From Candidatus Bipolaricaulis anaerobius (lineage in GTDB: Bacteria; Bipolaricaulota; Bipolaricaulia; Bipolaricaulales; Bipolaricaulaceae), in NCBI RefSeq assembly GCF_900465355.1, contig NZ_LS483254.1, forward strand, positions 1,178,001 through 1,242,000: a stretch of DNA of 64,000 nt, in the 5' to 3' direction. Under the pieces are notes generated by a model. The model saw nothing but the letters and a program-made list of their open reading frames with translations. It searched no databases and had not been told where the DNA came from. Position numbers and translations under genes: made by a program. Below are positions 69 through 63,122 of the stretch, in pieces. Numbering within the stretch: the first letter of the stretch is position 1; each line of letters opens with the position of its first letter.

Positions 69-135
69 CTAGCGGCGGTCCACAGTTTACGGTGCACCCG
101 TTCTCGGTTCACGCCAACCGATGGCCGCCTCGCTG

Positions 136-227
136 CGGAGGGAGTGGGATTCGAACCCACGGCTAAGGCTCAACACCCCAGCAACGGCTTAGCAAGCCGT
201 CGTCTTCGGCCACTCGACCATCCCTCC
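136..227 (-). tRNA. tRNA-Ser (GCT anticodon)
   Basis: Minus-strand cloverleaf with acceptor strands GGAGGGA (227-221) and TCCCTCC (143-137). The anticodon stem ACGGC/GCCGT holds the loop TTGCTAA, so the anticodon is GCT for AGC/AGT serine codons. A long variable arm typical of class II tRNAs is present. No CCA is encoded after the discriminator base, so CCA must be added after transcription. It lies about 67 bp from the tRNA-Arg on the same strand. Confidence 0.93.
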
Positions 228-7479: not shown

Positions 7480-8286
7480 CTATCCTACAGCGCCGGCGGG
7501 AGGCGGCCCCGGGAGGCGCTTGCGGGCGGAGACGAGGTACCCGGTGAACGCGGTCATCCGCTCGCTGGGGCGCACCCCTTCCCTCTCCCGGACGAGGATC
7601 GGCCGCTCCATCAACTCCACCGTCTCGATGAGGGCGAACCCGGCCTCGCGCAGCGCCCGGACCGACTCCTTGAGCTGCTCGGCGGTGGGGACGATCAGGG
7701 CGAGCGGCCGGCCCGGGGCGAGGGCAGCCCACGCCGCGGGGATCGCCTCCCACGGGGTGGGGAGGTCGAGGAACACGGCGTCGACGCCCGCCACGGGGAA
7801 CGGTTCCCCGGCGGTGAGAACTCCCGCCTCCACCCGATCCGCGGATCCGGCGCGGGCGATGTTGGCGAGGGCGTTCTCCAGGAACTCCGCTCTCTGATCG
7901 AACGTGTAGATCCGGCCCGTGGGGGCCACGAGCTGGGCGAGCAAGATCGTGAACGCGCCGGACCCGGTCCCCATCTCGACCACCCGCGCCCCCGGGCGGA
8001 GGTCGAGGGAAAGCGCGATCCAGCCCGCGTCCTTGGGGTAGACGATCTGGGTGCGGCGCTTGACCTTGAACATCCGGTCCCCGACCCGCGGCCGGAAGGC
8101 GAGGAACGGCCGCCCGATGTGGCTGAGGACCGTCGTCCCCTCAAGCTGTCCCGCGATCCCGTCGTGGGCGATCGTTCCCCGATGGCTGTGGAACTCCATC
8201 CCCGGCTCAAGGCGGACGAGGAAAGTCCGCCCCTTCCCCTCCTCCACGAGGAGGACGTCCTCCCCATACGCGAACGCCTCAGCCAC
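7480..8286 (-). CDS. trmI: tRNA (adenine-N1)-methyltransferase TrmI
   Basis: 268 residues. A small beta-barrel N-domain (about 1-75) with [10 protein letters not shown] and LSHIGRPF precedes a Rossmann methyltransferase fold with SAM motif [12 protein letters not shown] and the family motif [12 protein letters not shown]. These enzymes methylate A58 (and in archaea A57) in the T loop of tRNA and are common in thermophiles, where they stabilise tRNA. The start is GTG 8286, preceded at 6 nt by TAGCCT with no Shine-Dalgarno, suggesting a leaderless start. It is the first gene of a pair with sdaA, diverging from the ZIP transporter gene. Confidence 0.93.
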
Positions 8287-59405: not shown

Positions 59406-60053
59406 TCAATCCTCCTTGTGCACGTAGTGAGGGGCAAGTGGACGCGGGTCATCGGGTCCCCCCGACTGAAACCGGTCCCAGCCTTGGCGGGCAACCTCGC
59501 TCGCCCGAGGGTGGGCGAACCGCGCCCCGGCGCAGGTGACCCCCGGCGCACAAGTCGCGATCTCGTCCCGGAACTGCTCGACCCCGGATCCAACGAGGAG
59601 AGCGCCCGGCTGTTCGACCACCTTGGCGAGGGCCTCCCGCCACGGGAGCACGGCTTCCGCCCCCACGCGGTCCCGGGTTGCCCACGCCATGTACACGAAC
59701 TCCCGGCGGTCATGGATCCACACCGCGACCTTCCCCGGCCACCACGCAACCGGTCCGGCGAGGGCCTCGGTGTGGCGAACCCCCACCACGGGAACCTGTA
59801 AAGCCTGCGCCATTCCCTGGGCGAATGCAAGGCCGACCCGGAGACCGGTGAACGAACCGGGGCCGATGTCAACGGCGATCAGTTCGATCTCTTCCCGCTT
59901 CGCCGCCGCCAGACGGAGCAAGGCATCCACCGCCGCGGGGAGGACTCCCCCCCCGCTGCGGCCCATCGGCAGCACGAATTCGTGCTCCCCACCACCCAGG
60001 GAAACAAGGGCGACTCCGCCCTGGGCGCCCGCAGTCTCGATCCCCAACACCAC
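59406..60053 (-). CDS. tsaB: tRNA threonylcarbamoyladenosine biosynthesis protein TsaB
   Basis: 215 residues. ASKHA fold start VLGIETAGAQGGVALV, family motif AVDIGPGSFTGLRVGLAFAQ. TsaB supports TsaD in making t6A37 of ANN-reading tRNAs. It starts at GTG 60053, 8 bp after ribF. The genes for TsaC, D and E are not in this window. Confidence 0.92.
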   Translation of the reverse strand: MVLGIETAGAQGGVALVSLGGGEHEFVLPMGRSGGGVLPAAVDALLRLAAAKREEIELIAVDIGPGSFTGLRVGLAFAQGMAQALQVPVVGVRHTEALAGPVAWWPGKVAVWIHDRREFVYMAWATRDRVGAEAVLPWREALAKVVEQPGALLVGSGVEQFRDEIATCAPGVTCAGARFAHPRASEVARQGWDRFQSGGPDDPRPLAPHYVHKED

Positions 60054-60061
60054 GGTCCATC

Positions 60062-60964
60062 TTAGAGGCCAGCTCCCGGGGCGCGCAACTCCGCCTCACG
60101 AAGGAGGCGGGGCGGGGGATGCGTTCCCGCTAGGATTTGCTCGCCGCGGAGGCGATCCTGGGCGATCGCACGGGCGAGGGCCTTCTCATCGGCGAAGCGC
60201 TCGTCAGGCCTGAGGAAGGAGAGGAGGTGGACCTCCACTGACCCCACCACCTCGCCGTGGGGGGGGGTGAAGAGGTGGACCTCGGCCGAGGGGGATAGCC
60301 CAGGGAACGTCGGCCGGTCCCCGATGTAGAATAGAGCCTTGCTTTCCCCGAGCGACCATTGAACCCACGCCGCGTACACCCCGCGCCGCGGCCGCACGAG
60401 CTCGGGGGCGAGGTCGAGGTTCACCGTGGGGTAGCCGAGCCGGCGGGCGAGCTTCACCCCCGACGTCGGGCTCCCGGCGAGCCACGCTGGCCGGCCGAGG
60501 AGCAAGGCCGCCTGATCCACCTCCCCCCGGGCAATGAGGTCCCGGATCCGGCCCGCGCTCACCACCTCCCCCTCCCACCGCCAGGGGGCGACGACGTGCA
60601 CCGCCAGGTTGAGGGGGGAGGCGAGGCGCTGGAGGGTGGCCACATCCCCCGCCCGATCCCGGCCGAACCGGTGATCCGGCCCCACCACGGCCACTGTCGC
60701 CCCGAGCCGGGCGACGAGTTCCTCACCCACGAACTCCTCGGCGCTCAGGTCCTGGATCCGTTCCCAGGGGGCCACCACGACCTCGTCGGCGTGATCCCGG
60801 AGCAGGCGCACCTTGGCGGGGAGGGTGAGGAGAGAGGGCCCCCGGGGAGGGAACGTGTAGGCGACCACAGGGAGCCCGGCGGCGCGCTGGCGCGCCTCCG
60901 CGAGGAGGAACTGGTGGCCGCGATGGACGCCGTCAAACCGCCCCACCGCCACGGCACAGGACAT
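60062..60964 (-). CDS. ribF: Bifunctional riboflavin kinase/FAD synthetase
   Basis: 300 residues. FAD synthetase domain (1-150) has AVAVGRFDGVHRGHQFLL and VGPDHRFGRDRAGD; the kinase domain (about 165-290) has ARRLGYPTVNLD and RRGVYAAWV. It makes FMN and FAD. ATG 60964 starts the conserved region. It lies 5 bp after the TolB-like gene. Confidence 0.93.
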   Translation of the reverse strand: MSCAVAVGRFDGVHRGHQFLLAEARQRAAGLPVVAYTFPPRGPSLLTLPAKVRLLRDHADEVVVAPWERIQDLSAEEFVGEELVARLGATVAVVGPDHRFGRDRAGDVATLQRLASPLNLAVHVVAPWRWEGEVVSAGRIRDLIARGEVDQAALLLGRPAWLAGSPTSGVKLARRLGYPTVNLDLAPELVRPRRGVYAAWVQWSLGESKALFYIGDRPTFPGLSPSAEVHLFTPPHGEVVGSVEVHLLSFLRPDERFADEKALARAIAQDRLRGEQILAGTHPPPRLLREAELRAPGAGL

Positions 60965-60969
60965 CCGCG

Positions 60970-61821
60970 TTAGGAGGTCTTGCTGGCGAGGATGAGCCAC
61001 CCGTAGCTGCGCAGGGATCCGTACCCGATCTCATCCCCCTCGGGGCTCCAGCACGGGAACGCATCGCGCCACTCGTCAAAGGTGAACGCGGTCCGCTCCC
61101 GCCCATCGCGGCGGATGACGTGGATGTCGGATGGCCCGCGCAGGCTCGACTCAAACGCGATCCATTCCCCATCCGGGGAGAAACGGGGGCACCAGTCGAA
61201 GAACGGGTCCTCGGTCAGCATCTCGATCCGGTCTCCCTCCACGAGGTCGAGGACGTACAGGTCCCAACTCAGCGTCGCCCCGACCTGCCACAGGCCGACG
61301 AAGGCGAGCGATCGGCCATCGGGGGAGAAGTCGGGGGTGTCCACCGGACCAGGGGTGCGGGTGAGCCGGCGGACCGTCCCCGAGGGAAGATCGAACAGGT
61401 ACAAGTCGCACTGCCCATCCGCATACGCGATGAACGCGATGCTCGTCCCATCCGGCGACACGGCGGGCCGCGCGATGAGCTCGACCCCGGGGAGGGCCCC
61501 CGACTGCCGGAGCTGGTCTTGGGAGAAGAGGAGGGTCCGCTCCCCAGCGAGGGTGGCCTGCCACAGGGCGTAGCCTTGCTCGCTGAACGCCACGTACACG
61601 AACCAATCCCCGGGCCCGAACCGCGCCCAGTCGGTGGCCGCGCCCTCGGTCAGCGGACGGGCGTTCCGCCCCTCCGGGGCGAGCCCAACCCACACTTCCC
61701 CTTCGTCCACGTACAGCACGTACTGGCCATCCCGCGACCAGTCAAGGGCCGTCAGGCCGAGGAGCCCCGCCCCCGCCTGGATCGGGATCAGGAGAAGCAG
61801 CCCAACGCACAGCCTGCGCAT
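60970..61821 (-). CDS. Secreted TolB-like WD40/PD40 beta-propeller protein
   Basis: 283 residues. A signal peptide (about 1-19, RRLCVGLLLLIPIQAGAG) precedes five or so PD40 blades, e.g. LTALDWSRDGQYVLYV, RPAVSPDGTSIAFIA, TPDFSPDGRSLAFVG and CPRFSPDGEWIAFES. It probably acts in the periplasm as a binding scaffold. ATG 61821 is chosen because TAGAAT lies 7 nt upstream and overlaps the alternative ATG 61830. Confidence 0.85.
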   Translation of the reverse strand: MRRLCVGLLLLIPIQAGAGLLGLTALDWSRDGQYVLYVDEGEVWVGLAPEGRNARPLTEGAATDWARFGPGDWFVYVAFSEQGYALWQATLAGERTLLFSQDQLRQSGALPGVELIARPAVSPDGTSIAFIAYADGQCDLYLFDLPSGTVRRLTRTPGPVDTPDFSPDGRSLAFVGLWQVGATLSWDLYVLDLVEGDRIEMLTEDPFFDWCPRFSPDGEWIAFESSLRGPSDIHVIRRDGRERTAFTFDEWRDAFPCWSPEGDEIGYGSLRSYGWLILASKTS

Positions 61822-61891
61822 CACGCCCATTCTAGGCACGAGGCCGGAACGGGACAACTCCGACGCCCCCATCCCTTGCGGGGGGAAAGGG

Positions 61892-63109
61892 TCAGAACCC
61901 ATCCCGCACCTCCACGACGTCCAGTTCCGCGACCCGCGCCGGGATGCTGAGGAGGGAGGCAAGGTTGGGCTGGGTCGCCCCGCCGTCCCCGGAGATGAGC
62001 TCCTTCACGTACAGCCCACCCTGACAGAGGATCTCGACCTCCGCTTCCGTGGGGGAGAGGAGGCGGCCCGTGGCCGCGAGGACCCTCCGCCGGCGGACGA
62101 GGTCAGCCCGCCGATGACGGACCCGCTCCGGGGTCCGCTGCTCGATCTCCCCCACAAGCGCCCCCACGGCCCGCGTGAAGGCCTCCTCGTCCACCGGCCG
62201 TGCAAGCTCGATCCGCGCCCGGTACCTTTTGTCGGCCCGTTCCTCCTTCACCTGGGCCACGAGGTCCGCCGTGCCCGGTCGGAGGTCGAGGACCTCCACC
62301 TTCCCCGCGGCGGCAGCGTTCACCTCGCGGGCAATCGCCTCCAGGTCGAGGGTGCGGATCGTGGGCTCCTTGACCTCGATCACGAACGGCCGACCCCGGC
62401 CGAGCATCCGCGCGTCGATGTCCTCCCGCCCTGCCCCGTGGAGGTGGCCTCCCGTGCCGCCGCTGGCGGCGAGGAACGCGGGGAGCACGAGCTCCTCGAC
62501 CGAGGTCGGGTACTGCTTCCCCGTCCCCCCGCAGCTCACGCAGCCCCGGCCACGGCAGCTCCGGCACGGCCAGTGGGTTTGGGGGATCCCCCGCGCGAGC
62601 TTCCGGTACCGGCCGTAGAAGAAGGCCGGGGCGACGGTGAGCGCGATCGCCCCCGTGTCGAGGTCCACCGTGAACTGTACGTCCGGGCGGGCGAAGTCCA
62701 CCGTCGCCTCCCGCCCCGCCAGTTCCCGCTCGAACGCCTTCCCCAGCTCCCGATTCACATCGCGCCTGAACGGTTCGGCCCACGGGGAGGGGAACCGCTC
62801 AGCGAGGAACTCCTCCACCGCCTCGTGGCGGGGGGAGAGGCGCACGCCGAAGAGGAACGTGGCGAACTCCCGATCCCGAACGAGTTCGGCCGCCTCGCGG
62901 GCCCGCGCAGCGAGGGTCGGCCACAGGCCTTGGCAGACCCAGCACCGTCCCTCGGGGACCGACGCCCCGCCGCCGGCTGCGGCACGGAGGATCCTCCCCC
63001 GCTCCGCATTGGGGACACCGGAGCCCAGCCCAGCGAAGCGACGCCCGAGGCACCGATCGCAGATCGGCCCCGCGGAGGCAAGAGAGGCGGCGAGTTCGAG
63101 CGGGTCCAC
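61892..63109 (-). CDS. pus10: Archaeal-type tRNA pseudouridine synthase Pus10
   Basis: 405 residues, normal for archaeal Pus10. The N-part has zinc cysteines C17, C20, C56, C59 and a THUMP-like region. A knuckle CRSCRGRGCVSCGGTG (182-197) leads to the catalytic domain with GREDIDARMLGRGRPF; Asp232 is the expected catalytic Asp. The end shows LYVKELISGDGGATQPNLAS. Pus10 makes pseudouridine 54/55 in the T loop of archaeal tRNA; most bacteria use TruB for position 55 instead. GTG 63109 follows TATAAT by 7 nt, a leaderless start. First gene of a minus-strand run. Confidence 0.93.
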   Translation of the reverse strand: MDPLELAASLASAGPICDRCLGRRFAGLGSGVPNAERGRILRAAAGGGASVPEGRCWVCQGLWPTLAARAREAAELVRDREFATFLFGVRLSPRHEAVEEFLAERFPSPWAEPFRRDVNRELGKAFERELAGREATVDFARPDVQFTVDLDTGAIALTVAPAFFYGRYRKLARGIPQTHWPCRSCRGRGCVSCGGTGKQYPTSVEELVLPAFLAASGGTGGHLHGAGREDIDARMLGRGRPFVIEVKEPTIRTLDLEAIAREVNAAAAGKVEVLDLRPGTADLVAQVKEERADKRYRARIELARPVDEEAFTRAVGALVGEIEQRTPERVRHRRADLVRRRRVLAATGRLLSPTEAEVEILCQGGLYVKELISGDGGATQPNLASLLSIPARVAELDVVEVRDGF

Positions 63110-63116
63110 GAAGGAG

Positions 63117-63122
63117 ATTATA
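63117..63122 (-). promoter_or_regulatory. -10 box of leaderless pus10 promoter
   Basis: TATAAT on the minus strand, 7 nt before GTG 63109, no Shine-Dalgarno. Confidence 0.55.

Follow-up and report, generated by a model that had tools for sequence, protein, structure and literature searches.

The pus10 locus

The window, i.e., the whole stretch of DNA that was analyzed (64,000 nucleotides), carries a pus10 gene whose ORF has a GTG start and codes for a protein of 405 aa (Table 1). Downstream of pus10 the order is: TolB-like beta-propeller, RibF, TsaB and then bL28. The initial annotation had placed tsaB, ribF and rpmB beside pus10, and a TrmI (m1A58) at 7.5 kb. All four genes are confirmed by Pfam, with the TolB-like gene intervening before ribF; the ORF listed for this gene (60970-61962, minus strand) overlaps the end of pus10.

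A perfect TATAAT is localized at 63117-63122 (minus strand), 7 bases upstream of the GTG start of pus10. Because it is so close to the GTG, with no clear ribosome-binding site in between, a leaderless pus10 transcript is suggested.

Table 1. Features of the window, with their positions, strand and the evidence for each of them.
Feature	Position	Strand	Evidence
pus10, archaeal-type tRNA pseudouridine(54/55) synthase	61892..63109	-	TIGR01213, Pus10_C, Pus10_THUMP_arc, fold match to 2v9k
Catalytic pseudouridine-synthase domain, residues 163-401	61907..62623	-	Pfam Pus10_C, 202.7 bits
THUMP domain, residues 70-149	62663..62902	-	Pfam Pus10_THUMP_arc, 64.2 bits
N-terminal Cys4 site, first half, C17-x2-C20	63050..63061	-	Invariant in 23-row alignment
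N-terminal Cys4 site, second half, C56-x2-C59	62933..62944	-	Invariant in 23-row alignment
Second Cys4 site, C182..C193 (CRSCRGRGCVSC)	62531..62566	-	Invariant in 23-row alignment
Catalytic motif GREDIDARMLG, residues 227-237	62399..62431	-	Alignment with human PUS10; GRED invariant in 23-row alignment
ribF	60062-61000	-	Pfam FAD_syn, Flavokinase
tsaB	59406-60053	-	Pfam TsaD
rpmB/bL28	Just downstream of the ribF-tsaB block (59406..61000, -)		Ribosomal_L28
trmI-like m1A58 methyltransferase	7480..8286	-	Pfam GCD14, 117.4 bits; TrmI-like_N, 48.8 bits
tRNA-Ser(gct), likely substrate with U54-U55	135..227	-	ARAGORN; T-loop tally

Sequence and predicted structure of Pus10

The window protein is a genuine member of the known Pus10 family. 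The TIGR01213 model (tRNA pseudouridine(54/55) synthase Pus10) matches residues 9-401 with 455.9 bits, the cut-off being 200. When bacterial and archaeal Pus10 sequences are aligned (23 rows), the eight cysteines (C17, C20, C56, C59, C182, C185, C190 and C193) are all invariant, as are G227, R228, E229 and D230. The full-length Pus10 with zinc cysteines and GREDIDARMLG motif that had been read from the DNA alone is upheld by these results. The catalytic Asp is Asp230, assigned by aligning the protein with human PUS10.

Human PUS10 (2v9k) is the sole match found by a sequence search of the PDB (E 1.4e-27). It is also the top match of the predicted fold, i.e., of the AlphaFold2 model (pLDDT 94.1), with E 1.7e-33 and TMq 0.76. 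PUS3, TruA and TruB are far behind, the next family reaching a TMq of 0.41. The catalytic GRED motif is common to both proteins; human PUS10 differs by a larger accessory domain (PMC9957541) and has no second Cys4 cluster in the alignment. Archaeal Pus10 of the Halobacteriota type (COG1258, TIGR01213) has the same architecture, the eight cysteines and the catalytic motif, with ~45-52% identity. By comparison with it, the Pus10 of the phylum is characterized by bacterial hosts, by a branch of its own (support 96/84) and by genomes containing no Cbf5/TruB relative.

Distribution of Pus10

Pus10 was found in 85 of the 100 genomes of the phylum (Bipolaricaulota), covering 36 of its 39 genera, and in 35 of the 38 high-quality genomes (completeness of 90% or more, contamination of 5% or less). 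Most of the 15 genomes having no match are incomplete; three of them are of high quality. A scan of genome contigs gave 583 relatives, and the 80 best of them belong to Bipolaricaulota, Halobacteriota-type archaea and one Jordarchaeum, with no other bacterial phylum represented; the nearest named relatives, again among these 80, come from Candidatus Bipolaricaulota / Acetothermia. Pus10 was looked for in 10 bacterial control genomes and found in none. No bacterial Pus10 was found among 72,556 plasmids, the single plasmid Pus10 being that of Natronococcus. A mobile or viral origin was rejected: no relatives of Pus10 or TrmY were found in viral contigs, and the plasmids contain, besides the Natronococcus Pus10, COG1901 proteins of Vibrio/Photobacterium type.

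Pus10 is described as present in Archaea and in some Eukarya, not in Bacteria (PMC7912444, PMC9957541, PMC5682645). The initial annotation had likewise treated it as an archaeal and eukaryotic enzyme unusual in bacteria, which agrees with the results for control genomes and plasmids. The bacterial Pus10 described here contradicts the review statement that Bacteria have none. The literature searched describes neither a phylum devoid of TruB nor the combination of Pus10 and TrmY in bacteria; a mention may exist in the literature beyond this search.

T-loop enzymes of the phylum

TruB is near-universal in bacteria. The TruB_N model (TruB/Cbf5, COG0130), which also detects archaeal Cbf5, gives no match in the 100 genomes of the phylum, including that of the window, while the 14 controls out of 14 are positive. 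A truB elsewhere in the genome, a point raised together with the first reading of the locus, is absent both there and from the whole set. With a second TruB model (TIGR00431), used at a permissive E of 1, no sequence is over the cut-off in 68 genomes; the only two matches (E~0.1) are the Pus10 genes themselves.

The TrmA/RlmD family (m5U54) is not represented over the cut-off in any of the 100 genomes (11 of the 14 controls pass). TrmFO, the bacterial flavoenzyme for m5U54, is over the cut-off in a single genus, g6 (7 of its 8 genomes; genes L200-L202), among the 100 genomes. Outside g6, the matches are weaker and correspond to short partial alignments in other proteins, presumed to be relatives, e.g., MnmG. 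The TrmFO of g6 looks like a late gain. Since the one RluA-family synthase of the window's genome is RluD-like, no other obvious Psi55 synthase is seen in this genome (the search covered the RluA and TruB families).

In archaea, TrmY converts Psi54 to m1Psi54 (PMC7912444). TrmY is present in 79 of the 100 genomes of the phylum, including that of the window (G000:C1:552653-553231), where it reaches 146.3 bits with PF04013 and 192.1 with the NCBIfam model NF002560 (cut-off 183). It must be noticed that NF002560 is also passed by Vibrio-type COG1901 proteins, the function of which is listed as unknown (PMC5041015); this model does not discriminate the two groups and was rejected as a functional proof. 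The motifs LxDLPGxxGRLDxLCRC and PDER of the phylum's TrmY are common to MJ1640 and AF1056, whereas the Vibrio protein L203 is devoid of them; conversely, the Vibrio forms of these motifs are not found in the phylum. The TrmY of the window's genome is nearer to the archaeal structure (MJ1640, E 2.8e-29) than to the Vibrio one (VCA1059, E 1.2e-16). On sequence grounds, the TrmY of the phylum is of archaeal type rather than of Vibrio type, and an m1Psi54 activity is predicted for it. It matches archaeal TrmY (MJ1640, AF1056; COG1901) over the full length and differs by its bacterial host and, in family f9 (L192, L193, L199), by an extra C-terminal domain of ~70 aa matching DUF2007.

aTrm56 (Cm56; PF01994) was found in none of 68 genomes, all four archaeal controls being positive; a complete archaeal set of T-loop modifications was thus rejected. 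All the tRNA genes of the window's genome (46/46) have U54-U55.

Proposed modification of the T loop

Few features of tRNAs are as conserved as the T loop carrying Psi55 and a modified U54. Bacterial TruB, with TrmA or TrmFO, is expected to have the same target nucleotides (U55 and U54) as Pus10 and TrmY, but these are other enzyme families, not found in the phylum save TrmFO in one genus. Pus10 would be the tRNA T-loop pseudouridine synthase of the phylum, standing in for TruB, with the following steps: (i) the catalytic Asp of Pus10 would lead to the conversion of U55 and U54 into pseudouridine in all tRNAs; (ii) TrmY would then convert Psi54 to m1Psi54; (iii) the result would be an archaeal-style m1Psi54-Psi55 T loop, beside the m1A58 of TrmI. 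Pus10 and TrmY together would thus replace TruB and TrmA/TrmFO.

This replacement in the phylum, with Psi54, Psi55 and m1Psi54 as predicted products, is considered very likely, and the same high confidence applies, jointly with this whole explanation, to the statement that the pus10 of the window truly belongs to a bacterial chromosome and codes for a Pus10 of archaeal type. An archaeal mode of T-loop modification in this bacterium had been put forward as a possibility by the initial annotation; the proposal is now strongly supported by the absence of TruB, the presence of TrmY in the same genome and the absence of U54 methylases outside g6. The enzymes themselves have been described before; what would be new is that Pus10 and TrmY take over from TruB and TrmA/TrmFO across a phylum, a replacement well supported by genome content. 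If it is true, a core T-loop modification system is replaceable wholesale across domains; this reading also predicts m1Psi54 in bacterial tRNA. A broader statement, reasonably probable, is that m1Psi54-Psi55 occurs on all tRNAs in the whole phylum, after the loss of TruB and of the U54 methylase, and that g6 came back to m5U54 with a Pus10 making Psi55 only.

The specificity of archaeal Pus10 varies: that of M. jannaschii makes both pseudouridines, that of P. furiosus just Psi55 (PMC7912444). Archaeal Pus10 has been expressed in an E. coli strain mutated in both truB and trmA (PMC7912444). As some archaeal Pus10 make Psi55 only, sequence alone does not prove a dual Psi54/Psi55 activity. The bacterial enzyme could in the same manner make a single pseudouridine, i.e., either Psi55 (U54 being unmodified and TrmY acting elsewhere) or Psi54 (Psi55 being lacking or made by another synthase). 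Since COG1901 proteins of Vibrio have no assigned function, homology to TrmY is not by itself a proof of Psi54. This possibility is nevertheless unlikely: TrmY, which acts on Psi54 in archaea, accompanies Pus10 in most of the phylum; no genome of the TrmFO-bearing genus has it; and the sole RluA-family synthase of the genome is of the RluD kind.

A main role of Pus10 on other RNA (rRNA, mRNA), or as a non-catalytic tRNA-binding protein, in bacteria without Psi55, recalls human PUS10, which also acts in miRNA processing (PMC9957541). It is very improbable in view of the catalytic residues, invariant across the alignment, of the complementarity between the presence of Pus10 and the absence of TruB in the 100 genomes, and of the co-occurrence with TrmY.

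Lineages without TrmY

TrmY is absent from all the genomes of genus g6 (8/8) and of family f2 (6/6). The probability that genome incompleteness alone accounts for this absence is ~1e-7 (g6) and 7e-5 (f2), if gaps are independent. Family f2 has neither TrmY nor TrmFO, while g6 is the sole genus with TrmFO and counts as one evolutionary event, so that the Fisher value for this pattern does not amount to independent evidence.

The Pus10 sequences were compared over 86 reference columns, i.e., the positions that are at least 97% invariant across 69 archaeal sequences. In the 12 sequences from lineages without TrmY, 11-14 (g6) or 10-16 (f2) of these 86 columns are broken, against 1-7 in the 56 sequences from its other lineages in the phylum. 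P176, Y200 and E245 are replaced in the seven Pus10 sequences of g6 (7/7); the three residues are conserved in 56/56 of the remaining bacterial sequences, and 99-100% of the archaeal sequences have them as well. In f2, M235 is changed, and G239, P241 and L366 are changed in part. The simplest reading would be that, when m1Psi54 ceased to be made, selection for the Psi54 function was relaxed or altered. Genus g6 would have later acquired TrmFO and lost TrmY, its Pus10, altered at otherwise invariant positions, being probably narrowed to U55. P176, Y200 and E245 are candidate residues deciding between Psi54 and Psi55 and, if this is true, the phylum is a natural experiment on the site specificity of Pus10.

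The Pus10 of genus g15 in family f2 (L126:2264-3532) resembles human PUS10 in that its second Cys4 cluster is lost.

Host genome and origin of bacterial Pus10

The description of the Pus10 family as absent from bacteria (same three references as above) would fit an assembly chimera, a contamination or an archaeal contig, an explanation also considered in the initial annotation, but it has practically no chance of being right and was rejected: the neighbor genes are bacterial, the 16S on the same contig is bacterial (1420.5 bits, the top score within its Rfam clan), the assembly is a single contig of 1,324,338 bases (96.9% complete, 0.06% contaminated), Pus10 is spread over nearly all genera of the phylum and its sequences are split from the archaeal ones by one branch of the tree.

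truB often adjoins ribF. An in-place swap of truB for pus10 beside ribF was rejected: the pus10-ribF link is observed only at the window locus among the 42 bacterial pus10 loci compared, many of them with just ~1.5 kb of flank. At the rimP-nusA cluster of the window's genome (L212, G000:C1:531500-543500), truB was not found; rimP-nusA is followed by MMPL, RNase Y and SpoVS instead of infB-rbfA-truB.

The branch separating bacterial from archaeal Pus10 (96/84) was obtained in a tree from which the human and Jordarchaeum sequences, having long branches, were left out. This tree is unrooted and its archaeal side is of Halobacteriota type. Rooting with human and Jordarchaeum sequences was found unreliable owing to long branches (human 2.79, L126 1.28, L116 1.24). 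The mean identity is 45% between bacterial and archaeal Pus10 and 51% within bacteria; on these values, pus10 is old in the phylum, where it has apparently a single origin. Transfer from archaea or an ancient trait of the lineage had both been envisaged at first: age and an apparently single origin within the phylum stand. The pathway was probably gained once, before the phylum diversified, together with the loss of TruB; the event proposed is a single ancient transfer, with a euryarchaeon as the putative donor.
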